Shown here: one piece after another, positions 32,117 to 63,761 of the stretch
Layout: each line of letters starts with the position of its first letter
Position numbering within the stretch: the first letter of the stretch is position 1
NCBI GenBank assembly: GCA_902594255.1
Contig: CACJLN010000001.1
Coordinates: 1-64,000 of the forward strand
Source: an uncultured Pelagibacteraceae bacterium
Lineage (GTDB): Bacteria; Pseudomonadota; Alphaproteobacteria; Pelagibacterales; Pelagibacteraceae
Reading direction: 5' to 3'
DNA: 64,000 bases
Made by a program: the position numbers and the translations under genes
The notes under the pieces: generated by a model
The model's database searches: none
Told to the model about the DNA's origin: nothing
The model's input: only the letters and a program-made list of their open reading frames with translations

Positions 32117-32227
32117 CTACAATAAGAATATTGCCATAAGAACTAAAACTATGACAACAGCGACAGTTCCCCACAATACAAATTTAGTGAAATTATTCCA
32201 AGTTTTTTTATGGTCTTCATTATCCAT
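32117..32227 (-). CDS. aa3-type cytochrome c oxidase subunit IV-like small protein
   Basis: A 36-residue protein, MDNEDHKKTWNNFTKF followed by one transmembrane helix of about 19 residues. The acidic/amphipathic N-terminus with a Trp/Phe-rich KTWNNFTKFV stretch before the helix matches the alphaproteobacterial aa3 oxidase subunit IV (COX4_pro_2) pattern. This gene often sits next to pntAA. It lies nine bases before pntAA in the same direction. The family match is by pattern only. Confidence 0.68.
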   Translation of the reverse strand: MDNEDHKKTWNNFTKFVLWGTVAVVIVLVLMAIFLL

Positions 32228-32232
32228 AAAAA

Positions 32233-32358: not shown

Positions 32359-32370
32359 AAAAATTTGTAT

Positions 32371-32484
32371 GCCGGCAATGACCTACTCTTCCATATCTTA
32401 AGACAAAGTACCATCGGCGCTGAAAGGCTTAACTTCCGAGTTCGGAATGGGATCGGGTGTAACACTTTCGCAATAATCACCGGC
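32371..32484 (-). rRNA. rrf: 5S ribosomal RNA
   Basis: The reverse strand carries the conserved 5S segments: terminal stem GCCGGTGA / TTGCCGGC, loop B-C CCCGATCCCATTCCGAACTC, GGAAGTTAAGCC, and CGCCGATGGTACT with GGAAGAGTAGGTC. Mature ends may extend by a few bases on each side. No 23S or 16S precedes it within the remaining 31.5 kb; instead polysaccharide genes follow. This fits the SAR11 arrangement in which 5S is separated from 16S-23S by a hypervariable island. Confidence 0.96.
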
Positions 32485-47809: not shown

Positions 47810-48451
47810 TTATCTAATCTTTACCAAAACTAAAGAATTAAGTATTTCTTTGTTTTTAATACTTACAATATCACTTGAGGGAAGGATTTTTGCTACATAT
47901 TTTTTTTCAAGATTGTCAATAATTCGCTTCGAACCAAATTTTCTACTTATCTTATCATCACTATAATAATCATCAAAAATAACGATGCTTTTTTTATTAA
48001 TCAATTTTTTTACATTCTGCCAGTCTTTTTTAATAGTTTTTACTGAGTGACCACCATCAATAAAAATAAAGTCTATTTTTTTTTTAGTTTTAAATCTTTT
48101 TAAAGTTGTGATGGTATTTCCTCCTATCAACTTTATTTTTGATTTTGGAAATGACTGGGAGAGCATTTTAAAAATTTCTTTTTTACTTGATGGATTTTTG
48201 CTAAATTCTATTTTTATTTTCTTTTTTGTAATTTTTTCAAACAAATCAAAACCGTAAAATTGAATTTTTTTATTTAAAGATTGCGCTAAATCTATCATTT
48301 CAGAGGATCTTTTTCCTTTATACACTCCTATTTCCAAAATAGATTTTGGTTTAATTGCTACAATAAATTTAAACAAATATCTATAACGCGAATATTTTGA
48401 GAGAGAATATTTAAGCCACAAAAGTAAAAATTTTAAATTAATATATCTCAT
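47810..48451 (-). CDS. Class I SAM-dependent methyltransferase (Methyltransf_24 type)
   Basis: A 213-residue protein with SAM motif I ILEIGVYKGKRSSEM. The acidic DFIFIDGGHSVKTIKKDW segment is typical of Methyltransf_24 and catechol-type O-methyltransferases, where Asp and His help bind metal. VIFDDYYSD completes the site. It likely O-methylates a sugar in the island. The start overlaps the stop of the upstream gene by one base. Confidence 0.82.
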   Translation of the reverse strand: MRYINLKFLLLWLKYSLSKYSRYRYLFKFIVAIKPKSILEIGVYKGKRSSEMIDLAQSLNKKIQFYGFDLFEKITKKKIKIEFSKNPSSKKEIFKMLSQSFPKSKIKLIGGNTITTLKRFKTKKKIDFIFIDGGHSVKTIKKDWQNVKKLINKKSIVIFDDYYSDDKISRKFGSKRIIDNLEKKYVAKILPSSDIVSIKNKEILNSLVLVKIR

Positions 48452-49527
48452 TATTCAAACCATACCTTTTGTCTTATTTTTATTAAAATTTTTTTTTGTT
48501 TGTTTGATTTATTAATCACATTTTTGATATCATTTACTTTCGAGGAAAATACGATCCTATCAGTAATATAATCTTTTAAAATTGGTTTTTTTTCATAAAA
48601 TAAAATCGGAATTATATAAAAATAGCTAGATTCCAAAAGTAATGAGGAATTAGAAGCTAATAAATAATTAATTTTGTATTTTTTAAATAATTCATAAATA
48701 TTTTCTTGATGAAAACAATTAACATTATTTTTTATCAAAAATCTTTTCAAATTTTGATCTATTCTATTATTGGGTCTGAATTTAAAGTATATATTTGTTT
48801 TTTTAATTTTTTTTATTCTTTTAATTAAATTAATTATTACACTATTTTTTATTGAATCCTCCTGTATAATTAAAATTTCTTTGTGCAAAAAATTTTTTTT
48901 ATAGCTCTTAATATTTGAAAATTTTTTAAAAACAGAAATATTTTTATTCGAATATTCATAGTTAAATTGAACTAGTTTTTTTTTAAAATAATTGCTCCAC
49001 ACATAATATTTTTCAAATGTCAAATCTTTTAATGTTTTTTGATATCTGAGACTTGGTGATATCCTTGCATGTTGGTAAATAAATAATTTTGACTCACTAA
49101 GTTTGCAGGCTCTCGAGAATATTTGAATATTTCTATAATCATCAATCGAATAAAATTTTTTAATTTGAATTAATTTTAAAATTTTAGAGAGCAAAAATAT
49201 GTAATTTTGCTTAATTTTATCTTTTCTTGTGCCTGAAAGAGATTCTAGATATTCTAAAATATTAAAAATGTGATTAAAAAAAATGACGTTATTGATACTA
49301 AAATAAATCTTAATCCCTCCATAAAAACTTTGTGCTCTAACAAAATTAACGAAATTATTAATATTGTCTTTTTGGTAAATCTTTAATCTTAAATCAATAA
49401 GATTAGGACTATTTTCCTTTAAAATAACTAGTTGTGCTTTTTTTTTATTTATAAAAAAACACTTTAGTATTGTATTTAATGATAGAAATAAAAAGATAAA
49501 ACTTTTTAGAATTTGAAATATTTTCAT
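48451..49527 (-). CDS. GT-B-fold surface carbohydrate protein, unassigned
   Basis: A 358-residue protein, strongly basic, with an N-terminal hydrophobic segment (about 8-24). The second half has IYFKFRPNNRIDQNL and INYLLASNSSLLLESSYFY, patterned like the C-terminal domain of GT-B enzymes such as capsule sialyl- or phosphoglycerol transferases. No family signature is complete. It may be distantly related in fold to the 508-residue protein at 59.3 kb. Function is open. Confidence 0.55.
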   Translation of the reverse strand: MKIFQILKSFIFLFLSLNTILKCFFINKKKAQLVILKENSPNLIDLRLKIYQKDNINNFVNFVRAQSFYGGIKIYFSINNVIFFNHIFNILEYLESLSGTRKDKIKQNYIFLLSKILKLIQIKKFYSIDDYRNIQIFSRACKLSESKLFIYQHARISPSLRYQKTLKDLTFEKYYVWSNYFKKKLVQFNYEYSNKNISVFKKFSNIKSYKKNFLHKEILIIQEDSIKNSVIINLIKRIKKIKKTNIYFKFRPNNRIDQNLKRFLIKNNVNCFHQENIYELFKKYKINYLLASNSSLLLESSYFYIIPILFYEKKPILKDYITDRIVFSSKVNDIKNVINKSNKQKKILIKIRQKVWFE

Positions 49528-49549: not shown

Positions 49550-50395
49550 ATGAAAATTTACATACAAAGCAACAGAATTCAAGAAATTGCAGCAAAAGTT
49601 TCCTCAGAGACATTTAATTCCTTTGGCCTAAGTTCAAAAATTGTATTTGTTGAAGATTATAAGGAAATAACAAAATATTTTGGCAAGTCATATTTAAGAA
49701 AAGGTAAAAAAGTAATTTTTAAAGACGATTTACAATCTTTTACATTGTTAAGATTTTTAATACCAGAGTTGTCAGACTCAAAAAGTCCAATTATGATTAT
49801 CGATCCAGACATATTTGCAATTAAAAACCCAATATCAATTTTAAATGAAATAAAAAATGATCAGAAATTATATTGCACATTTATAGATAATAAACCCAGA
49901 ACCGAAATGATGGTTTTAAATCCAAAGAGTAAATTTTGGAGTTTTGAAAAAATCTTAAAAGATTTGTTTGATTTAAAAATTGATTATGATGATTTATTTA
50001 AACTCAAATTCTTAAGTTATAGTTCTTTGGAGAAATTAGACAGAAAATATAATTCTTTAGATGAAATTAATTATGAAACAGTTTTGCTTCATACAACTAA
50101 TAGAAAAACACAACCATGGAAGGAAGGTCTTAAAATTGATTTTGAAGTACATGCTTCAAAATTTAATAAATTTTGTAATTATTTTAAAAAAATAATTGGG
50201 CTTAAATACAATGAAGAAATCATTGGAAATTATTATAAAAAACATCCAAATAATGAGGTAATAGATTACCTTGTAAAGATTTTTAATAATGCATATAAAA
50301 ATAATGTTATAAGCAAGGATGATCTTTTGAATTTTTCTAAAAAAAGATATATTTCAAATGATTTCCTAAAAAAACTTGAACTCTCAAATAAATGA
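49550..50395 (+). CDS. Glycosyltransferase family 8-like protein
   Basis: A 281-residue GT-A-type protein. The DxD motif lies in MIIDPDIFAIKNPI (Asp85, Asp87). A later HTTNRKTQPWKEGLK (from His181) matches the HxxGxxKPW signature of GT8 galactosyl/glucosyltransferases. It opens a plus-strand cassette and ends four bases inside the next gene (ATGA), showing coupling. The similarity is by motif only and donor sugar unknown. Confidence 0.6.
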   Translation: MKIYIQSNRIQEIAAKVSSETFNSFGLSSKIVFVEDYKEITKYFGKSYLRKGKKVIFKDDLQSFTLLRFLIPELSDSKSPIMIIDPDIFAIKNPISILNEIKNDQKLYCTFIDNKPRTEMMVLNPKSKFWSFEKILKDLFDLKIDYDDLFKLKFLSYSSLEKLDRKYNSLDEINYETVLLHTTNRKTQPWKEGLKIDFEVHASKFNKFCNYFKKIIGLKYNEEIIGNYYKKHPNNEVIDYLVKIFNNAYKNNVISKDDLLNFSKKRYISNDFLKKLELSNK

Positions 50396-51351
50396 TTATT
50401 AAAAAAATTTTGATATTTTTTTTAAGCAAATTTTTTACAGGATCAATTAATAACATTTTAGAAAAAAAAAATATTATCGTACTTTATAGAAATGGTTCAG
50501 CTGTAGGTGAACTAGTTTATATGACAGCTATAATAAAAGAAATTTCTATTCAAAAAAAAAAGAAAATATTTCTCTTTACAAATAATCGCGAAATATTTCT
50601 AAATAACATTAGAATTTCAAAATTATTTTATATATCCAGCAAGAGTTTTATTTGGTTTTTTTTGAATAATTTAAATGGAAAGTCAATTAAAGAATTTAAC
50701 AGTATTCATGCTACAAAAAAAAATCATGAAAAACTAAGAAAATATTTCCTATATTTTCATTCAAATAATAGAATACATTTGGCTCATGCCATGTCAGAAC
50801 ATTTTAATTTAGATCTCGATTATAATAATATAGAAAATGAATTTTTTTTAACTAATGAAGAAATAAAAAAATTTAACGATAAAATTAATCTTCCATCAAA
50901 GTTTTCACTTATTCAATCAACAAGCAAACTTTCTTTTACAAAAAATAAAGAGTGGAAAATAGAAGGTATGCAGTCGATCGTAGACTATTTTAAAAATATT
51001 AAATGGATCCAAATAGGCAAATATGGAGAGCCGGTCTTAAACAATTGTGAAAATATGTTAAATTTGAATTTAAGAGAAGTGGCTTTTGTAATTTCAAAAT
51101 GTGATTTTATAGTTACTTATGAGGGCCTCTTTAATCATTTAGCTTCTTGTTTTCGTAAAAAAAGTTTTGTAATACATTCAGGCTTTCTGCCAGTAGAGGC
51201 TTTTAAATATAATAATAATATCATAATTGAACAAAATTCAAAAATGGATTGTTACCCTTGTTTTAATTTAGATTGTAATGAACATTCAAAAAAATTTTTA
51301 AATAATTTAGACAGCAAATATGTAATTAATGAAATAGAATTAAATTTATGA
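50392..51351 (+). CDS. GT9/heptosyltransferase-like protein
   Basis: A 319-residue protein. IVLYRNGSAVGELVYMTAIIKEI at the N-terminus resembles the GDAV/GD-type loop of heptosyltransferases. The C-terminal half has VAFVISKCDFIVTYEGLFNHLASCF, like the GT9 SxxxxxDxGxxHxAA block with Glu in place of the usual Asp. Cys residues cluster near the end (CYPCFNLDC). It probably acts on surface glycan. Overlap of four bases on both sides. Confidence 0.55.
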   Translation: MIIKKILIFFLSKFFTGSINNILEKKNIIVLYRNGSAVGELVYMTAIIKEISIQKKKKIFLFTNNREIFLNNIRISKLFYISSKSFIWFFLNNLNGKSIKEFNSIHATKKNHEKLRKYFLYFHSNNRIHLAHAMSEHFNLDLDYNNIENEFFLTNEEIKKFNDKINLPSKFSLIQSTSKLSFTKNKEWKIEGMQSIVDYFKNIKWIQIGKYGEPVLNNCENMLNLNLREVAFVISKCDFIVTYEGLFNHLASCFRKKSFVIHSGFLPVEAFKYNNNIIIEQNSKMDCYPCFNLDCNEHSKKFLNNLDSKYVINEIELNL

Positions 51352-52184
51352 TTAATTTAAATATTTTACAAAATTTTGATAAAAAATTTTATTTTTCAAA
51401 TCCATACCCATATTTTGTTATTGAAAAATGCTTTTCTGATAAAATTTATAACTTATTATATAGAGATTATAATTTGATAATTAATTATTTAAAAAAAGAT
51501 TATGATTTTAAAAATCTTAATAATGTAAGATTGCAAATCAACTCGGAAAATCTGCTGAAAGAAGAAATTTTTAAAAAAACAATTTGGTATGATTTTATTA
51601 AATACCATACCTCAAAAAAATTTTTTTTAGATTTAATAGAAATATTCCATGATGACTTAAGCGATTATTATCCTAAAATATTTTCTTCTTTAAAGATACA
51701 TCAAAATGATGAAAATTTTTTAAAGGTAAGGAGTAGAGAAAATCATAATCACAAATTTGTTATTGATTGTCAGCCTGGAATAAATACCTATGTGCGTAAG
51801 AAATCTAAGGTCAGAGGTCCACACGTTGACAATCCTGTAGAAATATTTGGAGGTTTATTTTATCTACGTGATAATGATGATACTTCCCAAGGTGGTGACC
51901 TGGAAATTTATGACACTGAAGATAAAAAAATTTTATTTGAAGGTAAGGCTGAAGTCAAAAATAGAGATTGTTTAAAAAAAGTTAAAACTTACAAATATGG
52001 AAAAAATAAATGTATATTTTTTTTAAATTCTCTAAAAACTATACATGGTATATCAGAAAGATCTGAGACAAACTTTACTAGAAATCTTACTAATTTTACA
52101 ATTGAAACATATTTTTTTAATAAATTATTTGATATTGAAAGAGGTGGAATAAAAAATTTACTTAAAAAAATATTGAAAAGATGA
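51348..52184 (+). CDS. 2-oxoglutarate/Fe(II)-dependent oxygenase-like protein (copy 1)
   Basis: A 278-residue cytosolic protein. The iron triad is seen as His159-x-Asp161 in RGPHVDNP and His233 in TIHGIS, with a candidate 2OG-binding Arg245. The core FGGLFYLRDNDDTSQGGDLEIY is typical of the prolyl-hydroxylase-like 2OG superfamily. It is clearly paralogous to the next gene. Substrate may be a glycan, a lipid or a protein residue. No signal peptide. Confidence 0.75.
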   Translation: MINLNILQNFDKKFYFSNPYPYFVIEKCFSDKIYNLLYRDYNLIINYLKKDYDFKNLNNVRLQINSENLLKEEIFKKTIWYDFIKYHTSKKFFLDLIEIFHDDLSDYYPKIFSSLKIHQNDENFLKVRSRENHNHKFVIDCQPGINTYVRKKSKVRGPHVDNPVEIFGGLFYLRDNDDTSQGGDLEIYDTEDKKILFEGKAEVKNRDCLKKVKTYKYGKNKCIFFLNSLKTIHGISERSETNFTRNLTNFTIETYFFNKLFDIERGGIKNLLKKILKR

Positions 52185-52197
52185 TACTTACAAAAAC

Positions 52198-53079
52198 ATG
52201 GAAAAGATAAGTATATTAAATAACTTTGATAAATCTAAATATTTTTTGGATCCTTATCCACATCTGATTATAGATAAGGTATTTGATGATAAAATTTACG
52301 AAGAATTAGAAACAGATTTTCAAAAATATCTTATAAATGAGTTTCAACGTAAAAAAGAATTTTTAAATGAAAATACTAGAGTACAACTTGCAGCTTCAGA
52401 AATTTCAAAAAATAAAAATTTGAAAAGTAAAATTTGGAAAGACTTTGTTGACTATCACTGTTCAAAAGAATTTTTCCTAGAATTTTTTAAAATATTTGAA
52501 AATGAAATATATAGATTATTACCCGATGTTTATAAAAAAATTCAACAAAACCAAAGTAAAGAAAATTTTATCGAGATGAGAGGTGGTTATCACAAATCTA
52601 GAGCTGAGTTAGCGAAACAAAATTCAAAATGTGACTTTGTTCTTGACTGTCAACCTTCTATTACGACACCAAATATTAATGGTCAAAAATCAGTAAGAGG
52701 TCCACATGTTGACAGTCCATTCAAACTTTACGCAGGATTATTTTATCTTAGAAATCCTAAAGACCAATTAGAGGGGGGAGATATAGTTTTATACAAACCT
52801 AAAAATAAGGTTAAATTTAATAACAAAACAAATGTAATTAACTACAATGATCTAGAGCGGAGTAAAGTTTTTAAATATGGAATAAATAATCTTGTTATGC
52901 ATCTGAACACCCCATTAACAGTTCATGGAGTTTCAAAAAGAGCTACAGGTAATTTTAATAGAAACCTCGTTAACATTATTGCTGAAAGTTATAGAGAAGA
53001 TAAGCTATTCAATCTTAATTACCAAAACAACATTTTTGCAAATATATCGAATAAATTTAAAAAATATTTGAACTTGTAA
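52198..53079 (+). CDS. 2-oxoglutarate/Fe(II)-dependent oxygenase-like protein (copy 2)
   Basis: A 293-residue paralogue of the preceding protein. Both share an N-terminal FDKxxYFxxPYP block, DCQP before the active site, the RGPHVD motif (His170, Asp172), YAGLFYLR, and the distal TVHGVS (His243) and Arg255. Iron and 2OG ligands are intact in both copies, so both are probably active. Divergence is wide outside motifs, suggesting different substrates. Gap from copy 1 is 13 bases. Confidence 0.75.
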   Translation: MEKISILNNFDKSKYFLDPYPHLIIDKVFDDKIYEELETDFQKYLINEFQRKKEFLNENTRVQLAASEISKNKNLKSKIWKDFVDYHCSKEFFLEFFKIFENEIYRLLPDVYKKIQQNQSKENFIEMRGGYHKSRAELAKQNSKCDFVLDCQPSITTPNINGQKSVRGPHVDSPFKLYAGLFYLRNPKDQLEGGDIVLYKPKNKVKFNNKTNVINYNDLERSKVFKYGINNLVMHLNTPLTVHGVSKRATGNFNRNLVNIIAESYREDKLFNLNYQNNIFANISNKFKKYLNL

Positions 53080-53088
53080 TTTGGTTTG

Positions 53089-53991
53089 ATGCGGAAAATT
53101 ATATTCCACATAGGAAATCACAAAACAGGCTCATCAACACTACAAAAATTTTTATATAAAAATAAAAAAATTTTAAATAATAACAAAATTCTTTATCCAA
53201 ACGAATGTATAAGATATGGGGATTATGCACACCACAATTTGGCTTTTGAACTAGCTAATTTTAATCAATATAACCGTAAATTTGGAAACTACAAAAAATT
53301 TTTAAAAATTGTTAGAGAAAATAAAAAAAAGGATATCTTAATAAGTTCAGAAAATTTTGAAAAACTAAAGTTTAATCATAAATTTAGTAAATTCATTCGT
53401 AAAATAAAAAAAATGAATTATAATTTTATAGTTATTTTTTTTTTTAGAGAAAGAATATCTTTATACCAAACTATGATCGCTGAACTGGTGAAATCTGGCT
53501 ATATCTTTAAAAATTCAGATCATTTTAAAAATATAAGAATGATTAAAAAAAACGGTTATTTTGAATATGATAATCATAAATTTTGGTTCAGCAAAAAAAA
53601 GGAGGTAATTGAAATTTTGAAATATTTCCCTGTTTCTAAAAAAAATATTGTTTGTATTAATTACAAAAAAAATAAAACTGTGAATTTATTTTTAAATCAA
53701 ATTTTAAATAACAAAAAAAAAATAAATTTTTACAAAAGTAATTTAATTTTCCCAAAAAATATCAATTTACGTAATGGATATTATAAAATCCATCAAATTA
53801 ACTCTTTAAATAAAATTAGAAAGATAATATTTGAAATTAATTTTGAAAACTTTATCTTCTCTTTTTTTCAACTAATTTTAACTATTTCAAAACTTTCTTA
53901 TTTTAAAGTTAGATCGGCTATATTTGAGGATTATAAAAAACAAATTTTACCAAATAAATACATATCAAAATTACAATCGCTTAGGTTATAA
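53089..53991 (+). CDS. Sulfotransferase-like protein
   Basis: A 300-residue P-loop protein. KIIFHIGNHKTGSSTLQKFL near the start resembles the 5'-phosphosulfate loop of sulfotransferases. FIVIFFFRERISLYQTMIAEL is the counterpart of the 3'-phosphate-binding segment with an Arg. It would transfer sulfate from PAPS to a glycan or protein hydroxyl. A TTG three bases earlier is not needed; the ATG is chosen. It is the fifth gene of the cassette. Family assignment is moderate. Confidence 0.72.
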   Translation: MRKIIFHIGNHKTGSSTLQKFLYKNKKILNNNKILYPNECIRYGDYAHHNLAFELANFNQYNRKFGNYKKFLKIVRENKKKDILISSENFEKLKFNHKFSKFIRKIKKMNYNFIVIFFFRERISLYQTMIAELVKSGYIFKNSDHFKNIRMIKKNGYFEYDNHKFWFSKKKEVIEILKYFPVSKKNIVCINYKKNKTVNLFLNQILNNKKKINFYKSNLIFPKNINLRNGYYKIHQINSLNKIRKIIFEINFENFIFSFFQLILTISKLSYFKVRSAIFEDYKKQILPNKYISKLQSLRL

Positions 53992-54066
53992 TATTTTTAA
54001 AGTTTAAATTATTATAATTATAGATTTACTTAATAGAATTAATATAATAAATAATTAATAATTTTT

Positions 54067-55122
54067 ATGATGCAGAAAGACAAATATCAATATAGTGTAG
54101 AAATTGCTGGAAGCTGCAATTTAAGGTGTCCGTCATGTCCTGTAGGAAATATGAGAGACAAAAAAGAAGAGAGACCTACCCAGCTAATTGAAAGCGACCT
54201 TTTTTATAAAATAATTGATAAAATTGTAGAAGAGTCTATAAACAAAAATTGTTTTGTTTCTGTATTTGATTGGGGAGAACCTACACTTCATCCTGAACTA
54301 CCTAAATTTATTTCCTATATTAATCAAAAAGGTCTCAAATCTAGAATTTCAAGCAATTTAAACCATGAAGCAGATTTTCGTTCAATTATAAAATCTAATC
54401 CAACAGAATTTCAAATTTCAATTTCTGGTTTTTCATCTGACATTTATTCTACTACTCATGCTAGAGGAAACATTTTTAAAGTAAAATCCCATATGTACAA
54501 GTTAAGACAATATGCAAATCAGTTTAAAAGTAATACTGAATTTCATGTTTGTTACCATGTTTATAAACACAATTTTTCAGAAGATTTTGAAAATATGAAA
54601 AAATTAAGTAAAGAACTCAATTTTAAATTTATTCCAATTTTGGCAAAATTAATGCCTATTGAAAAAAATCTTGCATATATAATGAATAAAAAAGTTGACG
54701 GAAATAAATCTATCAGTCAAAAAAATACTATTAATGAAGAAGATAAAAAATTAATTGATTTGTTATTTGTAGATCCCTACGAAGAATATAAAAACTGGAA
54801 GAAACAAACAGCGTCAAAAAGAAATAATTTGACAAGTTATTGTACTAAGCGTGAATACAAAACACCTATTAGAGTTGATGGGAGTGTTGGCCTTTGTTGT
54901 GCGGTCTACAATACGAAATTAAAAGTTGTAAATAATTTTTTAGATCTTCCACATAATGAAATTCATGAGTTAAGAAAAAAAAATGACTATTGTGGTACTT
55001 GTATGGAACATGGTTTACACGATAACTGGAAAATGAAGCAATCTCAATTTTTTTACAAAAATTTGCTAGGAAATAATTTTATTTCAAAAATTCAGAGAAA
55101 AATATTTAAAAAAATTGTTTAA
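54067..55122 (+). CDS. Radical SAM/SPASM domain protein
   Basis: A 351-residue enzyme. The [4Fe-4S] motif CNLRCPSC has Cys17, Cys21 and Cys24. VFDWGEPTLHP is the conserved glycine-containing strand. The C-terminal part (about 275-335) holds a SPASM-like set of Cys, with GLCCAVYN and CGTCMEHGL. Such proteins modify peptides or sugars with extra clusters. It lies at the end of the cassette, after a 75-base AT-rich gap, and its stop shares TTAA with a convergent gene. Substrate unknown. Confidence 0.87.
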   Translation: MMQKDKYQYSVEIAGSCNLRCPSCPVGNMRDKKEERPTQLIESDLFYKIIDKIVEESINKNCFVSVFDWGEPTLHPELPKFISYINQKGLKSRISSNLNHEADFRSIIKSNPTEFQISISGFSSDIYSTTHARGNIFKVKSHMYKLRQYANQFKSNTEFHVCYHVYKHNFSEDFENMKKLSKELNFKFIPILAKLMPIEKNLAYIMNKKVDGNKSISQKNTINEEDKKLIDLLFVDPYEEYKNWKKQTASKRNNLTSYCTKREYKTPIRVDGSVGLCCAVYNTKLKVVNNFLDLPHNEIHELRKKNDYCGTCMEHGLHDNWKMKQSQFFYKNLLGNNFISKIQRKIFKKIV

Positions 55123-55871
55123 TTAGGCAATAATATAAAATGTCTTTTAGTTATATTCCTGATTGTGTAGTTATTTTTTCTTATGAGATCAGTAATATTG
55201 TCTAAATCTTTACTTTCCACAAAAATTTTTGGTCTCTTATTTTTTGAGTAAAATTCAAAAATCTGTTTTAATATATTGATTTCATTTCTAACTATTTCGC
55301 CTTTTAAATTTCTTGCATCTACATCTATAAAAATAAAATCTAAATCTTTGTTAATATTTTTATTAAAAAAATTTTCAAAAGATATAGTTTTAACATTTTT
55401 ACCTTTTACATCTATGGTGTTTTCGTCACCTATAGCATCACAAAATAACTTTACATTATTAAGATTATTTATCTCAATATTTTTTGTTAAATAATTTTCA
55501 TAATAATTTGAATTAGGTTCAACAGCGTAAATTGTTCCATTTTTTGATAATTTTGCAAATTGAATTGTAAAATAACCATAAGCTGATCCTATTTCGAGCA
55601 CATTATAATTTTCTTTAACATATTTTTTTAAAACAAGTGAAGTAAGAGGTTCATATAGCCCCCACGTTCTAAAAAGTTTTGTTGGAAATTTGAATTTTTT
55701 TGGATCTTCAATATCTATATAAAATTTAAAATTATTTAAAGTTGATTTTACAAGAACATTTCTAATTCTTTTTTCCCGATGATAATTGATTTGTCCAATT
55801 AATGTAATAAACTTTATAATTAATCTTAATCCAAAACCATCAAAGATAAATTTATAAAATGGATTTATCAT
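55119..55871 (-). CDS. FkbM family methyltransferase
   Basis: A 250-residue SAM enzyme. VLEIGSAYGYFTIQFAKL (motif I), IYAVEPNSNYYENYL (motif II) and DFIFIDVDARNLKGEIV (motif IV) follow FkbM order. It usually O-methylates sugars or polyketide-like hydroxyls. It is the most downstream gene of a nine-gene minus-strand operon from the right edge and ends convergently with the radical SAM gene. It overlaps the TylF-like gene by four bases. Confidence 0.88.
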   Translation of the reverse strand: MINPFYKFIFDGFGLRLIIKFITLIGQINYHREKRIRNVLVKSTLNNFKFYIDIEDPKKFKFPTKLFRTWGLYEPLTSLVLKKYVKENYNVLEIGSAYGYFTIQFAKLSKNGTIYAVEPNSNYYENYLTKNIEINNLNNVKLFCDAIGDENTIDVKGKNVKTISFENFFNKNINKDLDFIFIDVDARNLKGEIVRNEINILKQIFEFYSKNKRPKIFVESKDLDNITDLIRKNNYTIRNITKRHFILLPN

Positions 55872-56647
55872 TTAATAATAAAACGACTATTATTATCAAT
55901 CTTACATAATAAATATTTTTTATTTTTAAAGAAATCATCAATAGCTTTTTTTGCTCCTAACCAATTTGAGTAATCGTCGAAAATGATTACACCACCTTTG
56001 GAGACTCTTTTAAAGAGATAATTTAATTCAGTTCTTGTCGAGTTATAAAAATCTGTATCAAGCCTGAGAAGACATATTTTTTTTGGCAAATTTTTTTTAA
56101 TCTTTAAGGTATTTTCAACTTTTCCTTTAATAAATTTAAATTTCTTTAAACTTTTTTTTCCACAAAATTTTGAAATATTTTTTTTGACATCAACTATAGG
56201 AGAAAAATTCCAGCCTTCCTTTGTGTTAGATGTTTTTTTCCATTTTTCTAGAACTTGTGACAGATTTTTATTAATTTTTTTATCATGTTTGCTAGGTTCT
56301 GGCATACCTTCAAATGTATCATACAAGTAAAAGTTTTTTTTCATTTTAAATTTTTCTGAAAATGTTAAATAGCTTAAAATACTAACACCTCCTTTCCATA
56401 TACCTGTTTCAGCATAGTCACCATGAATTTTATTTTTTTTAATATATTTTATTGCAGACAATAAAAACGTTAAATTACTTGAACTTACCATTGTTAAATT
56501 CAAAATTTTTTTAACTCTTCTAATTTCATTTTTAGTGAGGTCATCTAAAGTTATAGGTTTTTTAATATCCTCTACAATGATTCTTAAATTGTGTTTTTGT
56601 AAAATTTTATTAAGTTTTAAAATTATTTTTTTAATAATTAATCTCAT
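55868..56647 (-). CDS. TylF/MycF-like O-methyltransferase
   Basis: A 259-residue enzyme of the metal-dependent TylF family. GDYAETGIWKGGVSILSYL gives the SAM site, LYDTFEGMPEPSKHD is diagnostic, and LLRLDTDFYNSTRTELNYLF with IIFDDYSNW supplies the metal-binding Asp pair. TylF-type enzymes O-methylate sugars in macrolides and glycans. It overlaps the ABC transporter and FkbM genes by four bases each. Confidence 0.9.
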   Translation of the reverse strand: MRLIIKKIILKLNKILQKHNLRIIVEDIKKPITLDDLTKNEIRRVKKILNLTMVSSSNLTFLLSAIKYIKKNKIHGDYAETGIWKGGVSILSYLTFSEKFKMKKNFYLYDTFEGMPEPSKHDKKINKNLSQVLEKWKKTSNTKEGWNFSPIVDVKKNISKFCGKKSLKKFKFIKGKVENTLKIKKNLPKKICLLRLDTDFYNSTRTELNYLFKRVSKGGVIIFDDYSNWLGAKKAIDDFFKNKKYLLCKIDNNSRFIIK

Positions 56648-58389
56648 CTTTTGATCTCTAATACTTTTTTATTCTCTACTTTGTAAACTTTTTCAAAAAT
56701 TTCTCTCAAATTTGGGTCATGAGTTACAAGAATTAATGTTAAATCTTGATTTTTCAAAAGATCATTGAGAATTTCTTTTTCTAATTTCTTATCTAAATTT
56801 GCTGTTGTTTCGTCTAATAAGACAATCTTTTTATTAAAATAGAATAACCTTGCTAAAGCTAATCTTTTTGCCTGACCTTCGGAAATATTTTTAAAATTTG
56901 GATTTATCTTAAAATCAAATAATTTCGAATTATCACAGAATTCTTTTAATCCTCCAAACATTAGTGATTCTTTTGCTTTTTCAATATCTATTTCATCAGC
57001 TTTTTTTCCAAAAGCAACATTTTCAATTAATGGCGCATTAATAAATGAGATGTTTTGAGAGATTAGTCCAATCTTAGTTTTAAGAGAATTAAGTGTTTCA
57101 TTATCTATCTTTTTACCATTTATTAAAACTTCTCCACTAAAATTATCTCTAAAACCACAAATTATTTCTAACAAAACTGATTTACCTTCACCTGAGTCTC
57201 CATAAATTAAGATTTTTTCACCTTTGTTAATATCTAGATTTAAATCTTCAAATACAATCTTATCCTTAAACTTAAAATTAATATTTTTTAATTTTATATC
57301 CTTAATTTCAAAATCATCCTCAAATTTTTTATTTTGTCTACTCTCATTTTTAGAAATTGCCTCTTTTACAATTCGCTTATTGAGATATATTTTTGGATAA
57401 TCTTGTTTAAGGAAATTAATGATATACACCTGGGCTCCTAATATTTCTAAATAATTTCTAGTAATTTGAACTATATAAGGAATAATTCTAATCAAAGCAA
57501 AAACTAAGGTAGCAAAAAAAATAAAAGTTTCATCTTTTGAGCTTGTCTGCGAAAAATTTATAAAAAAAATTGTAATAATTATTATTAAGCAAAATTCAAT
57601 TAACAATTTTGGTAAATTTCTTAAGATTATTAATTTAAGTTGAGATCTGTATAATTTGTTTGAACTTTCATAAAACTTTTTTGCAAAAAAACTCTCAGCA
57701 AAAAATAATTTAATTTCTTTAAAGTTTTGAATAATATTTCCTGGAGATAAAAAAGTATCAACATTATAAGACCTCTCCAACGTAGAAATTTTACTAAAAA
57801 TCTTATTTATTTGAGGAGTAAAAAGTATAGAGAATATTATTACACAAAATATAAGGATATAAATTGTATAAAAGTTAAAATATACTAGATAAGCGAAAAC
57901 AATTGAAATAATTATTAAATTTTTTAGTATTATACAAAATGATCCAAATCCAGTAGTTAGAAACTTACCTGGATCAATATTGATTTTGTTTATCAATTCA
58001 TTCGTAGGAATATTTGCGATTTCTTTAAAATCCTTTTTAATATATTCATTAAAAACGTATGTTCTGAAATGTAAATACTTTTTTGAAATGATTTTTTGAA
58101 TCAAATAATTGCTAAAAAAAGACGTGAAAATATTTAATGTAAATAAAATTACGAAAGTAATTATCACAAAGTTTTGATTAGGCATTAATTCATTTAATGA
58201 AATTATTTTTGACAATATGTTATTGTTTGCCTCACCCTCAGCAAAGATAGTTGCCATAAGATAACTAAAAGCACCTAGTCCTAATAGTTCCAATACTGCG
58301 GCAAATAAAGAGATAGAAATAACATAAAAAAATTCCTTTTTGAGATCTGTCTTATTGATACCATTTATTAAAATTTTAAGTATTTTCAT
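56644..58389 (-). CDS. ABC transporter, fused permease and ATPase (PglK-like flippase)
   Basis: A 581-residue half transporter. About six helices occupy residues 20-310. The ATPase has Walker A GDSGEGKS (397-404), Q-loop Gln445, signature ISEGQ (502-506), Walker B KIVLLDE (521-527) and His557. In this context it likely flips lipid-linked glycan to the periplasm. The Walker B is followed by TT rather than P, as in exporters. It forms a homodimer, as no partner gene is seen. Confidence 0.87.
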   Translation of the reverse strand: MKILKILINGINKTDLKKEFFYVISISLFAAVLELLGLGAFSYLMATIFAEGEANNNILSKIISLNELMPNQNFVIITFVILFTLNIFTSFFSNYLIQKIISKKYLHFRTYVFNEYIKKDFKEIANIPTNELINKINIDPGKFLTTGFGSFCIILKNLIIISIVFAYLVYFNFYTIYILIFCVIIFSILFTPQINKIFSKISTLERSYNVDTFLSPGNIIQNFKEIKLFFAESFFAKKFYESSNKLYRSQLKLIILRNLPKLLIEFCLIIIITIFFINFSQTSSKDETFIFFATLVFALIRIIPYIVQITRNYLEILGAQVYIINFLKQDYPKIYLNKRIVKEAISKNESRQNKKFEDDFEIKDIKLKNINFKFKDKIVFEDLNLDINKGEKILIYGDSGEGKSVLLEIICGFRDNFSGEVLINGKKIDNETLNSLKTKIGLISQNISFINAPLIENVAFGKKADEIDIEKAKESLMFGGLKEFCDNSKLFDFKINPNFKNISEGQAKRLALARLFYFNKKIVLLDETTANLDKKLEKEILNDLLKNQDLTLILVTHDPNLREIFEKVYKVENKKVLEIKR

Positions 58390-59330
58390 TATAGTTTAAT
58401 TGAATTTTTTTCTAATTTTTTACAGATTTTAAATGTATTTTTTTTTATATTTAAAATTTGTTTTTTATTTAAATCATTTTTATATCTTCTAGTAACATCT
58501 TTTATAATTCCATATTTATCGGTTTTTTGTTTTTTAAATGAACTGTCATTTTCAATCAACTCACCATTAAATGTTGGGTACATTAATTTTTTATCAAATT
58601 TGATAAAAAACTTTTTACAAACATATTTCATTATTTTTATTCTATTATTTATTAAATCATCAAATTTAATAATCAAAACTCTGTTTCGAAATTTAGATTT
58701 TGCAGCTAAAACTTCTAATTGTGATGATATCCAATATTTTTTTATTGAATTAATATCTTTATAGATATCTTTAAAGTTCTTAGCAGAATACCACCATGAA
58801 TAAGGATCTCTATAAATATGAATTATATTTAATCTTTTATGAAAATTTAGTTGTTTAATCAAATTACCTTTACAAAAAAAGGGTGAGAAACCTGTTATTA
58901 TTTTTTTTTCTCCGTTATCATTTTTAAAATTAGTCCAATATTTAAAAAAATTATCAAAATAATTATCAAAAAAATGTTTATCATATCGTTCTCTAGATAA
59001 TATCTGAGTAAATTCTGAGGTTAAAAAGTGAAATCTATGTTTTTTTTTTGCAAATTTTCCCTTTCTATAACCATCTCTCATTAAACGAGTAAATTCTTTT
59101 TCTGTTTTTAAAATTTTGTTAGGAATATTGTCTACACCTTCTTTATAAACCATGATTTCCCAAGGATGTGCTAGGATTTCTGGGTGATTGTCAAAAAGTT
59201 GAGAAATTAATGATCCACCACTTCTTTGGAGTTGTGAAGAAATTAATACTGGTAAATTTTTCTTATATGAAAATAAAGATTTATTTTTATTTTGGTTATG
59301 CTTTTTTCTTTTTATTAAATTAAATATCAT
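58389..59330 (-). CDS. Sulfotransferase domain protein
   Basis: A 313-residue protein. LISSQLQRSGGSLISQLFD resembles the 5'-PSB loop and NIIHIYRDPYSWWYSAKNF the 3'-PB loop with the conserved Arg-Asp-Pro. The lengths between loops suit carbohydrate sulfotransferases. It differs clearly from the sulfotransferase-like gene at 53.1 kb. It sits directly beside the ABC flippase, sharing one base, and overlaps the next gene by 11 bases, so sulfation may precede export. Confidence 0.8.
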   Translation of the reverse strand: MIFNLIKRKKHNQNKNKSLFSYKKNLPVLISSQLQRSGGSLISQLFDNHPEILAHPWEIMVYKEGVDNIPNKILKTEKEFTRLMRDGYRKGKFAKKKHRFHFLTSEFTQILSRERYDKHFFDNYFDNFFKYWTNFKNDNGEKKIITGFSPFFCKGNLIKQLNFHKRLNIIHIYRDPYSWWYSAKNFKDIYKDINSIKKYWISSQLEVLAAKSKFRNRVLIIKFDDLINNRIKIMKYVCKKFFIKFDKKLMYPTFNGELIENDSSFKKQKTDKYGIIKDVTRRYKNDLNKKQILNIKKNTFKICKKLEKNSIKL

Positions 59331-60856: not shown

Positions 60857-61540
60857 TTACTTGTGTATATAATTTGTCTTTTTTAGAAGTTTAAAATCGT
60901 CTAAAGTATCAATATCTATAGATCTAAATCTTGGCATAAAATAGCCCTTCAATTTTGGTCCAATAAAACTATTATGTTTTAGAAAACTTTTAACTTCTGC
61001 TGCATAAATGCTACCGTTATCGACGAAAAATGTATTATTCTTAAATACTTTTTTATTAATCAATTTTGCCCAAACAGGTACCAAAGTTTTTTCTTTTAAA
61101 ATCAACGCATGATGTGGATAATGATCGAAACTTGTTATACCAATTGCAAATTTGGTATTTTTATTGAGTAATTTCATTGTTTTCCTAATATCTAATGAAT
61201 TTCTTAAAGGAGCAGTCGGATATAAGACGCAAATATATTTTAACTTAATTTTTTTTTTTCTATACTCACTAATCAAAAACTTACAAACTTGATTAATTGT
61301 AGATTTATCTGTTGCTAGTTTTTTTGGTCGATCATGAATAGTGACAGGAAATTTTTTTGATATTTTTTTTATTTTTTTGGAGTCTGTTGAGACAACTATT
61401 TCATCAAAAACATTACTTTTGACTGCAGATTTAATTGTATGAACAATTAAAGGTAAGCCTAGAAATTTAAGAATATTTTTGTTTTTTAGACGTTTAGAAC
61501 CCTCTCTTGCTGGTATTATTGCAATTGTTTTTTTTTTCAT
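60857..61540 (-). CDS. neuA: Acylneuraminate (nonulosonate) cytidylyltransferase
   Basis: A 227-residue enzyme activating a nonulosonic acid as CMP-sugar. IIPAREGSKRLKNKNI is the nucleotide loop, VVSTDSKKI and YPTAPLRNS bind CTP and sugar, and DIDTLDDFKL closes the active site with the metal-binding Asp. Given the PseB/PseC neighbours it may be PseF (pseudaminate) rather than sialate-specific. The gene starts within the upstream synthase stop (ATGA). Confidence 0.92.
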   Translation of the reverse strand: MKKKTIAIIPAREGSKRLKNKNILKFLGLPLIVHTIKSAVKSNVFDEIVVSTDSKKIKKISKKFPVTIHDRPKKLATDKSTINQVCKFLISEYRKKKIKLKYICVLYPTAPLRNSLDIRKTMKLLNKNTKFAIGITSFDHYPHHALILKEKTLVPVWAKLINKKVFKNNTFFVDNGSIYAAEVKSFLKHNSFIGPKLKGYFMPRFRSIDIDTLDDFKLLKKTNYIHK

Positions 61541-62598
61541 TTAAAGTCTTTTCTATTCAATTGATTACCTTTTTTTACATTTCTCTTAAGTTTCAGGTTT
61601 TGTATTTTTTCAAATTCATCAGATTGAATACCCGTTCCTGGTCTTCTAAAAATAATGTTGCAAGCACTTAATCTTTGTCCTTTTTTTTCATCACTCATAA
61701 AAAAGGCACTTCGTCTGACTAAATTCCTCTTTTTTTTATCTTTAGCACTAATATACTTAAAATATTTTCCTCTAGCTTTTTCAACATTTCTTATTGATTG
61801 AACAAAACTTTTCATCTCATTAATTTCAATTGACATCATATGTTCGACCTGGGGAGTAGCCCTATTCTCGGTTACAGTTTTTTCAATTAAATCAACACCC
61901 ATTGCTAGTGCTACCAAATCCATCTCAATTCCAGGTGAATGATCAGAGTATGCAATAGGAAATCTAAATTTAGATTTTAAAGTTTTTATTATGTTCAAAT
62001 TAACATTATCTAATTTAGCTGGATAATCCGAAGGACAATGATGAATTATTATTTTTTTATTTCCTTGTTTTGTTATGGCATTAACAGCTTTTTGAATTTC
62101 TTCAATCGTTGACATGCCAGTATCAATTTGAATTGGTAATTTTGTTTTTGCCGCATATCTTACCAAAGATAAATGATTAATGTCCGCTGAAGATATTTTA
62201 AGAGATTGACAGCCAATAGATTTCAAAAAGTCTACCTCTTCCTCATAACCAACTGTGGAAAAAAAAGCTAAACCAAGCTTATCACACAGTTTCTTCAAAG
62301 AAATCCATTGATTTTTTTTTAAACATCTTCTTTTTAATATTTTAAATAGTGGTTCTGTTTTTTTAATAACAATATTTTTTTTTTTATTTTTAAGTATTGA
62401 ATAAGAAAATAACTGACTTTTATCAGATACTAATTTTTCCGGATCAAAAATTTGAAATTTTACTGCATCTGCTCCTGCTTCTGCGGCTTTTCTAATCATT
62501 CTTTGAGCAGATTTAAAACCTCTGTGAGTTGCTCCTAATTCAAAAGTTATAAAACAACGCTGATTATGGCCTATTTTTTTTTTTCTAAATTTAATCAT
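61537..62598 (-). CDS. neuB: Nonulosonic acid synthase (NeuB/PseI family)
   Basis: A 353-residue enzyme condensing phosphoenolpyruvate with a 6-carbon amino sugar. The TIM barrel shows ELGATHRG, EAGADAVKFQIF, LKISSADINHL, PIQIDTGMS and SDHSPGIEMDLVALAMG. A C-terminal SAF domain (RRSAFFMSDEKKGQRLSACNI, RPGTGI) completes it. It could be NeuB, LegI or PseI. Context with pseB- and pseC-like genes favours pseudaminic acid, not proven. Confidence 0.92.
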   Translation of the reverse strand: MIKFRKKKIGHNQRCFITFELGATHRGFKSAQRMIRKAAEAGADAVKFQIFDPEKLVSDKSQLFSYSILKNKKKNIVIKKTEPLFKILKRRCLKKNQWISLKKLCDKLGLAFFSTVGYEEEVDFLKSIGCQSLKISSADINHLSLVRYAAKTKLPIQIDTGMSTIEEIQKAVNAITKQGNKKIIIHHCPSDYPAKLDNVNLNIIKTLKSKFRFPIAYSDHSPGIEMDLVALAMGVDLIEKTVTENRATPQVEHMMSIEINEMKSFVQSIRNVEKARGKYFKYISAKDKKKRNLVRRSAFFMSDEKKGQRLSACNIIFRRPGTGIQSDEFEKIQNLKLKRNVKKGNQLNRKDFK

Positions 62599-63761
62599 TT
62601 TTTAAAAAAATCTTTAACTATTTTTACTATATATCTTAAATTTTTTTTACTTAACTGATTATAGAGCGGTAAACTAAAAGCTGTTTTTGAAAAAACTTCA
62701 GTATTTGAAAAATCTTTTTCATTCATTCTAAAGGATTTAAAATATCTGTGGGTAAAGATTGGAATGTAATGAAATCCAACTTGAATATTATTTTTATTCA
62801 GATAATTAACAAGCTGTAATCTTGTCTTATTTGTTTTTTTTGTCTCTATTCTCAAAATATAAAGATGGTAACCAGATTTGCTTTTTAAATCTAAAACTTG
62901 TGGAATTAAGGGTAAATCTTTAAAAGCAGAATTATAATATTCGACAATTTTTTGTCTTTTTTTGACAATTTCTTTTAATCTTTTTAGCTGACTTCTTGCT
63001 AAAGCTGCTTGGAAATCTGTCATTCTATAATTATATCCAAGCATTATTTGTTCATAATGAGTTGGTAAAATCTTGAATCTTCTTTTAACAAAAAATTTTT
63101 TTTCAAAAGAAATACCATGGCTTCTTAGTAATTTTAGTTTATCTGCAATAACTTGGTTATTTGTCAAAACTGCCCCTCCTTCACCCGAGGTAACATTTTT
63201 TATCGCATGAAAACTAAAGGTGGTAATATCACTATACTTACAACTACCTATTTTGTGTTTTTTGTACCTAGCCGACAGCGCATGACAAGCATCTTCAATA
63301 ATTTTAAATTTATATTTTTTTGATAATTCAAAAATTTTTCTCATTTCACATGGTTCTCCCCCAAGATGAACTACAACAATAATTTTTGGTAATTTTTTTT
63401 TGAGTTTTGCTTTTTGTAATTTTTTAGATAAGGCGCCTACGTCAATATTATAATTATTCAAATTGATATCAATAAAATCTACCTTAGCTCCACAGTATAA
63501 TCCACAGTTTACAGACGCAACAAATGATACTGATGTTGTCCATAAATAATCACCTCTTTTTAAATCTAGTGCCAAACATGAGATATGTAATGCAGATGTA
63601 CAGCTATTAACTACAGTGGCAAATTTTGAATTGCAAAACTTTTTGAGATCTTGTTCAAATAATTTAACTTCTTTTCCTTGAGTTAAATTGTTTGATTTTA
63701 AAGATTTTGTGACTGCTCTAATATCATCATCATTAATCTGATGTTTAGCATAAGGAATCAT
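62595..63761 (-). CDS. pseC: UDP-4-amino-4,6-dideoxy-sugar transaminase (PseC-like, DegT family)
   Basis: A 388-residue PLP aminotransferase. The opening MIPYAKHQINDDDIRAV is typical of PseC. Asp157 in EDACHA and the PLP Lys188 in SFHAIKNVTSGEGGA are present. It aminates the 4-keto product of PseB using glutamate. It overlaps neuB by four bases and lies eight bases after the pseB fragment. Other DegT sugar transaminases are possible but less likely. Confidence 0.85.
   Translation of the reverse strand: MIPYAKHQINDDDIRAVTKSLKSNNLTQGKEVKLFEQDLKKFCNSKFATVVNSCTSALHISCLALDLKRGDYLWTTSVSFVASVNCGLYCGAKVDFIDINLNNYNIDVGALSKKLQKAKLKKKLPKIIVVVHLGGEPCEMRKIFELSKKYKFKIIEDACHALSARYKKHKIGSCKYSDITTFSFHAIKNVTSGEGGAVLTNNQVIADKLKLLRSHGISFEKKFFVKRRFKILPTHYEQIMLGYNYRMTDFQAALARSQLKRLKEIVKKRQKIVEYYNSAFKDLPLIPQVLDLKSKSGYHLYILRIETKKTNKTRLQLVNYLNKNNIQVGFHYIPIFTHRYFKSFRMNEKDFSNTEVFSKTAFSLPLYNQLSKKNLRYIVKIVKDFFKK

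Follow-up and report, generated by a model that had tools for sequence, protein, structure and literature searches.

What would a marine bacterium build with two putative sugar transferases, two Fe(II)/2-oxoglutarate (2OG) oxygenases, a putative sulfotransferase and a radical SAM enzyme that are encoded side by side? Six such genes occupy the plus strand at positions 49550–55122 of the stretch analysed here (the window: 64,000 nucleotides from an uncultured Pelagibacteraceae bacterium of the SAR11 group, positions 1 to 64,000 of contig CACJLN010000001.1, assembly GCA_902594255.1). An earlier note on this DNA had described them as a self-contained module that could hydroxylate, sulfate and radically modify a surface glycan or a secreted peptide. 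We conclude, with a probability of roughly 0.68, that the six genes are a tailoring branch within a SAR11 O-chain (surface polysaccharide) island, and regard them as an unusual combination within a known kind of surface-sugar island, not as a new system. SAR11 is among the most abundant bacterial groups of the ocean, with O-chain islands that differ markedly from strain to strain (PMC11898729, abstract).

Six genes kept together in a second genome

Six plus-strand open reading frames (ORF1 to ORF6) were confirmed, coding for proteins of 281, 319, 278, 293, 300 and 351 amino acids (aa). As previously described, they run in one direction and mostly overlap or nearly touch, with spacings of −4, −4, 13, 9 and 75 bp from ORF1 to ORF6 when ORF5 is counted from the ATG at 53089, and their immediate neighbours on each side are encoded on the minus strand. 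The start codons of ORF1 and of its divergent upstream neighbour are 22 bp apart; the downstream neighbour is convergent with ORF6, which it overlaps by 4 bp.

The earlier note had staked its proposal on these genes occurring together outside this genome, and they do: searching the genome collection with ORF6 turned up a single confirmed locus, in the single-cell genome Pelagibacteraceae AH-326-D09 (L008), where all six genes are intact and have the same order and orientation. Both 4-bp overlaps within the block are also kept there, and the 22-bp start-codon distance upstream of ORF1 is identical. Identities between the two genomes are 71, 71, 81, 82, 66 and 86% for ORF1 to ORF6, 53–77% for the eight flanking genes compared and 86% for FtsH. 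The ratio of non-synonymous to synonymous substitution rates (dN/dS, NG86) ranges from about 0.05 for ORF4 and ORF6 to about 0.19 for ORF5, with dS above 1 and hence near saturation for all six. As these low ratios show, the six genes are under purifying selection and, judged from the intact, kept order together with dN/dS, their arrangement appears to be more than chance.

Location within the O-chain island

The six genes sit in the SAR11 O-chain biosynthesis cluster (OBC), or hypervariable region 2 (HVR2). One border of this island is a 5S rRNA gene (32370–32484, minus strand; Rfam RF00001, 95.8 bits), and the other is found farther along the same contig, outside the window (in the stretch L032), where Rfam models identify a 23S rRNA (RF02541), two tRNAs (RF00005) and a 16S rRNA (RF00177). 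The stretch from 5S to 23S comprises about 40 kb with 23.9% GC, compared with 29.9% for window positions 1–32000, and its profile matches include glycosyltransferases of families GT2, GT4 and GT1, an epimerase, NeuB and PseC. Such a 5S-to-23S/16S arrangement is described for HVR2 (PMC2217521) and for the Pelagibacterales OBC (PMC11898729, section 5), with which our island agrees in its position between the 5S gene and the 16S–internal transcribed spacer–23S genes, its low GC content and its surface-glycan genes.

The idea of a self-contained module had to be given up, since AH-326-D09 shares flanking genes on both sides and the conserved block thus continues into the surrounding genes of this surface-polysaccharide island. 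Collinear in AH-326-D09 are the divergent neighbour, FkbM- and TylF-family methyltransferases, an exporter, a second sulfotransferase, a 500-aa protein, a cytidylyltransferase and NeuB-like and PseC-like genes. A PseB-like gene is placed differently (47% identity), a few genes differ and two glycosyltransferase genes lie just below 50% identity. A second AH-326-D09 contig matches window 38.9–45.3 kb with few differences; the counterpart of window 45.3–49.0 kb was not recovered, as the contigs end there. In total, 19 of the 26 AH-326-D09 ORFs of at least 100 aa on the two fragmentary island contigs count as shared at thresholds of 50% identity and 70% coverage, which is below the rule, given in section 6 of PMC11898729, that at least 90% of the genes be shared at these thresholds for two islands to belong to the same OBC type.

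Enzyme classes of the six proteins

Support is good for the enzyme classes assigned to ORF3, ORF4 and ORF6; the remaining assignments were drawn from weak homology and neighbourhood. ORF3 (51348–52184, plus strand, 278 aa) and ORF4 (52198–53079, plus strand, 293 aa) are two copies of an Fe(II)/2OG oxygenase. Both resemble the PF13640 type, scoring 25.0 and 15.5 bits, respectively, below the cut-off of 27 bits; in the genome-wide search, ORF3 “with its neighbours in the frame” scores 27.2 bits. The two intact HxD...H triads recognized in the earlier note proved robust: the iron triad and the following 2OG-binding arginine (H159-x-D161, H233 and R245 in ORF3; H170-x-D172, H243 and R255 in ORF4) are invariant in all eight aligned proteins, namely ORF3, ORF4, their two AH-326-D09 orthologs and two proteins each from other SAR11 genomes and from Azospirillum. 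With these last four, ORF3 shares 21–27% identity. A search of solved structures with the 2OG profile returned a prolyl-4-hydroxylase-domain protein as its sole match (E 0.046). Because orthologs are 81–82% identical and the paralogs ORF3 and ORF4 about 40%, the pair goes back to a tandem duplication that predates the split of the two genomes. Three further PF13640 matches, two of them above cut-off, lie outside the island on contigs C10, C2 and C4 of the same genome. Matches to the 2OG profile in three other SAR11 genomes (G143, G399 and G132; 34.7–37 bits) were set aside, as the ORFs around them, read by eye, point to dehydrogenase and aldolase genes instead of a glycan island.

ORF6 (54067–55122, plus strand, 351 aa) matches the radical SAM family PF04055 with 31.7 bits (cut-off 29.5). 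Its CxxxCxxC motif (C17, C21 and C24) and four C-terminal cysteines (C259, C277, C309 and C312) are conserved in all seven rows of the alignment, and the spacing C259-x12-G272-x4-C277 and C309-x2-C312 fits the twitch pattern. Twitch domains bind one auxiliary cluster, which in BtrN is held by four cysteines (PMC9012708). Of the seven-cysteine SPASM motif given in PMC6231123, ORF6 fits the first part while the remainder is missing, and the SPASM family PF13186 gave no match up to E 0.1. The previous label “radical SAM/SPASM” therefore stands in its first half only: because just four C-terminal cysteines are conserved, we class ORF6 as a twitch-type enzyme.

Against solved structures, the seven-row ORF6 profile retrieved 17 sequences at E ≤ 0.1, among them the butirosin twitch radical SAM dehydrogenase BtrN (3.4e-6), which resembles ORF6 in its CxxxCxxC and four-cysteine twitch pattern, DesII (0.00096) and cytosylglucuronate decarboxylase (0.019). 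The latter two act on sugar carbons. Solved-structure searches that started from one protein or from profiles of two to four rows gave no match or chance-level rows for ORF1, ORF3/ORF4, ORF5 and ORF6. In a scan of the phylum, a relative of ORF6 was present at 1e-15 in five of 398 genomes, the genome of origin included; these loci and two plasmid loci, read by eye and from plasmid annotation, lie mostly among polysaccharide genes, with rfbF/rfbG-type or other such genes around most of the distant relatives viewed. Tandem radical SAM paralogs akin to ORF6 occur in polysaccharide-type clusters at six places on a Deltaproteobacteria plasmid (Smac51, L028) and at three in genome G534 (L021), several of them with an extra N-terminal stretch.

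ORF1 (49550–50395, plus strand, 281 aa) had been called GT8-like, a name that was not confirmed. No Pfam, NCBIfam or PHROG family was matched at E 0.1, GT8 (PF01501) included; Pfam matches of the AH-326-D09 ortholog at E 10 were all at chance level, and a relative in the SAR11 genome G051 had no Pfam match at E 0.01. Relatives with 26% identity on Roseomonas and Diaphorobacter plasmids adjoin ELM1/GtrOC1 glycosyltransferase genes and are also surrounded by acyl-carrier and acyl-ligase genes. An IDPD stretch in ORF1 would fit a GT-A transferase; the AlphaFold2 model was unusable (predicted local distance difference test, pLDDT, 35.6). We provisionally refer to ORF1 as a putative GT-A-like transferase of unnamed family.

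For ORF2 (50392–51351, plus strand, 319 aa), the assignment to the GT9 (heptosyltransferase) family survived with a thin margin, its PF01075 match of 22.5 bits being just above the cut-off of 22. The AH-326-D09 ortholog scores 24.8 bits, and the G051 relative has no Pfam match at E 0.01.

ORF5 (53089–53991, plus strand, 300 aa, with an alternative TTG start at 53086) is a putative 3′-phosphoadenosine-5′-phosphosulfate (PAPS) sulfotransferase. Searches of Pfam, NCBIfam and PHROGs at E 0.1 gave no family for it, nor did any Pfam sulfotransferase match up to E 10. With tblastn, six plasmid records were found, and four of the six matched proteins are named “sulfotransferase domain-containing”; these align over residues 1–137 with about 30% identity and E about 1e-5. 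An N-terminal HIGxxKT loop and an FFR...S stretch, which we take to be PAPS-binding motifs, are kept in three SAR11 proteins. A low-confidence model (pLDDT 53, predicted TM-score 0.45) looks like a P-loop protein. Foldseek ranked a GTPase first (E 2.2e-4), followed by retinol dehydratase with bound 3′-phosphoadenosine-5′-phosphate (3.9e-4 and 9.7e-4), whereas VIA-align placed adenylate kinases highest (Z up to 9.1) and 3-O-sulfotransferases at Z 7.7–7.9; the model thus does not appear to separate a sulfotransferase from a kinase. The motif and the 137-aa similarity favour the sulfotransferase-like label while the Pfam result does not, and we keep the name provisionally.

Genes flanking the block

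Upstream, the divergent neighbour (48451–49527, minus strand, 358 aa), a putative glycosyltransferase-like protein without a Pfam or NCBIfam family match, is 70% identical over 160 aa to its AH-326-D09 counterpart, which stops at the contig end. Downstream, convergent FkbM- and TylF-family methyltransferase genes (55119–56647, minus strand; TIGR01444, 43.1 bits at a cut-off of 37.7, and PF05711, 115.9 bits) show 70–71% identity to AH-326-D09. They are followed by a gene for an ABC exporter with fused transmembrane and ATPase domains (56644–58389, minus strand; PF00005/PF00664; 68% identity). Among the matches listed (25 of 177 profiles), this MsbA/PglK-like protein scores best with MsbA and PglK and lower with peptide exporters, all below the cut-offs and MsbA and PglK far below. 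A second sulfotransferase gene (58389–59330, minus strand) has 77% identity to AH-326-D09; its product belongs to PF13469 (38.7 bits, cut-off 27), a family that ORF5 does not match.

Farther downstream lie nonulosonic-acid genes (60857–63761, minus strand; NCBIfam profiles) for a PseC aminotransferase (447.2 bits, cut-off 423.5) and, both below cut-off, a PseF-like cytidylyltransferase (169.5 bits, cut-off 205.7) and a NeuB/PseI-like synthase (275.0 bits, cut-off 399.65). By eye, the same island (window 60857–63761 and L032 1770–6839) also holds PseB-like, second NeuB-like and PseG-like genes. At the other end of the island, a pntA small RNA (RF01810, 85.3 bits; window 32170–32231) adjoins the 5S rRNA gene.

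Distribution in other genomes

The full six-gene set was found in two genomes only, and pieces of it recur in other SAR11 glycan islands. At E ≤ 1e-20, ORF6 was present in one of 397 sampled genomes of the order, that of the query itself; the 2OG profile at 1e-8 matched four of 297 genomes of the order (the own genome and three weak ones), and ORF4 at 1e-5 matched two of 247 genomes of the family (the own genome and the SAR11 genome G038, with 32% identity). ORF1 and ORF5 were each detected at 1e-6 in two of 147 genomes (the own genome and one other each) and the exporter at 1e-90 in one of 197 (the own genome).

A proposed tailoring route

Taking these results together, we infer a glycan substrate, a common product, the individual reactions, the exporter cargo and the following order of steps. 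ORF1 and ORF2 would transfer one or two sugars. With Fe(II), O2 and 2OG, ORF3 and ORF4 would oxidize, most likely hydroxylate, two C–H positions or two substrates. ORF6 might use a 5′-deoxyadenosyl radical and one auxiliary Fe–S cluster to oxidize or epimerize a carbinol carbon in the manner of BtrN, the type of sugar/cyclitol dehydrogenase that carries out a two-electron oxidation at such a carbon, and ORF5, along with the nearby second sulfotransferase, probably sulfates a hydroxyl. The MsbA/PglK-like ABC exporter would then export the product as a component of the O-chain. Of the earlier suggestion, tailoring of a glycan thus remains the best reading and sulfation is probable; the peptide alternative is unlikely.

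KdoO, the Kdo 3-hydroxylase, is a 2OG enzyme that acts on a lipopolysaccharide sugar and provides a precedent for such chemistry; we found no sequence link between it and ORF3 or ORF4. The main text of PMC11898729 (2025), which treats the Pelagibacterales OBC, contains no words beginning with sulfotransferase, radical SAM or oxygenase, a comparison that does not cover “dioxygenase”. A literature search by title, with most subscription papers outside its scope, gave no description of the six-gene set, and no known structure of SAR11 O-chain glycans turned up in this analysis.

Several observations weigh against a tailoring branch. ORF1 belongs to no named family, ORF5 has no Pfam match and both 2OG proteins stay under the Pfam cut-off. 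Among solved structures, the ORF6 profile matches an archaeal lipid synthase best (7tol, E 5.1e-7), and the alignment to BtrN is limited to the N-terminal core (profile 4–80), ORF6 differing from BtrN also in its location within a marine surface-glycan island. The 2OG family is not confined to glycan loci, as a relative with 24% identity is encoded near a lasso-peptide B2 gene in Azospirillum. With the full set in two genomes only, co-occurrence could reflect one island inherited as a block. For a PAPS source, the genome offers only a partial APS-kinase match (see below), and the substrate and product of the six enzymes are predicted ones.

Alternative readings

A narrower form of the tailoring proposal, whose odds are not exclusive of it, is that the set edits a Pse-type nonulosonic-acid precursor before transfer, ORF3, ORF4 and ORF6 acting on a CMP- or UDP-sugar and ORF5 adding sulfate. 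The PseC, PseF-like and NeuB-like genes lie about 6–9 kb away in both genomes, and in G038 a weak 2OG relative clusters with a synthase of the 3-deoxy-D-arabino-heptulosonate 7-phosphate (DAHP)/NeuB type, a SPASM radical SAM enzyme and a CMP-transferase-related gene. We consider this form possible yet doubtful: it has no direct link to the block, the G038 2OG protein is only 28–32% identical to ORF3 and ORF4, and the G038 radical SAM enzyme has no match to ORF6 at 1e-5 (35% over 80 aa at E 8e-4). The G038 cluster (L027 3647–11756; PF13186 49.2 bits, DAHP synthase 181.6 bits), which by eye also contains aminotransferase-like and shikimate-dehydrogenase-like genes, could make a DAHP-derived surface group.

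Alternatively, reshuffling of the island may have brought these genes together by chance, with every enzyme serving a different sugar or lipid and the six forming no functional unit. A single other genome carries the set and shares the flanks too, and G051 illustrates such reshuffling: its ORF1-like gene (45% identity) lies beside an ORF2-like gene (37.5%), and further genes of this rearranged cluster code for a protein related to the divergent neighbour (33%), a PF13640 member (28.4 bits), a PhyH protein and an FkbM methyltransferase; no blastp match to ORF5 or ORF6 was found at 1e-5 in that 20-kb stretch. We nevertheless judge a chance stretch to be unlikely, as gene order, both 4-bp overlaps and the 22-bp divergent spacing were kept despite dS above 1 for all six genes, and conservation within the block is highest for the 2OG pair and the radical SAM gene (81, 82 and 86%, against 53–77% in the flanking genes compared).

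Far less probable is a cassette resembling those for ribosomally synthesized and post-translationally modified peptides (RiPPs), in which ORF6 and the 2OG enzymes would modify a precursor peptide that is later sulfated and glycosylated. RiPP pathways often employ SPASM radical SAM enzymes (PMC9012708), and the Azospirillum sp. TSH100 relative of the 2OG proteins is two genes from the lasso B2 gene and has an asparagine-synthase-related gene in its vicinity. In our block, no gap exceeds 75 bp, too little for a usual precursor gene (antisense and distant ORFs were not searched), the surroundings are glycan genes, no RiPP-maturase profile came near its cut-off for ORF6 and, within the searches made, no RiPP partner scored above cut-off. 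A peptide is an unlikely substrate, given how little space the gaps offer a usual precursor and that MsbA and PglK, both below cut-off, are the best of the exporter's listed matches. The Azospirillum locus itself (plasmid, L071 7980–9892) consists of the ORF4-related 2OG oxygenase gene, an unnamed 228-aa gene and the lasso-peptide B2 gene in succession, with an ABC transporter gene also nearby.

A phage origin was dismissed: with tblastn against phage records, ORF6 found three Campylobacter phage records (27% identity) and neither ORF4 nor ORF5 found any, and IMG/VR scans with ORF4, ORF6, the 2OG pair, ORF5 and ORF1, which detect close relatives only, gave no confirmed relative.

Sulfation and the supply of PAPS

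The tailoring branch would place sulfotransferases in a bacterium for which sulfate assimilation is reported to be missing, and thereby exposes a gap, as a source of PAPS is needed. “Candidatus Pelagibacter ubique” is described as lacking cysDNCHIJ and sat while possessing aprBA, proposed to serve in sulfite disposal (PMC5069961); Table 3 of that paper appears to list cysC and aprA for strains HTCC1002, 1062, 7211, 9565 and HIMB5. A literature search combining SAR11, sulfotransferase and PAPS gave no title on this topic.

AprA exceeded its cut-off in 47 of the 66 genomes sampled from the order, including the genome of origin (992.9 bits). Matches to adenosine-5′-phosphosulfate (APS) kinase were present at 1e-5 in 75 of 97 genomes, of which only 18 (by our own count) reach profile position 128 or beyond. 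In the genome of origin (81.6% complete), the APS-kinase match is partial only (profile 4–90 of 152) and by eye corresponds to a small P-loop ORF adjoining a small nucleotidyltransferase-like gene (L058 6911–7802, contig C6). Many of the genomes searched show similarly partial matches over this range of the profile, and the cysC label in SAR11 may need checking. Small APS-kinase-like genes at L061 7177–7686 and L060 7134–7661 lie within apparent SAR11 glycan islands and not beside sulfur genes.

We put forward, as an improbable speculation, that the locus makes a new class of SAR11 O-chain sugar, edited by three C–H-activating enzymes (two 2OG oxygenases and one twitch radical SAM enzyme) and sulfated, with PAPS derived from sulfite by AprBA working towards APS and then by a small APS-kinase-like protein. 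If PAPS did come from sulfite, the widespread aprBA genes of SAR11 would gain a biosynthetic role beyond sulfite disposal. For the surface of these bacteria, the six-gene set predicts a testable chemistry, namely sugars that would be 2OG-oxidized, radically edited and sulfated.

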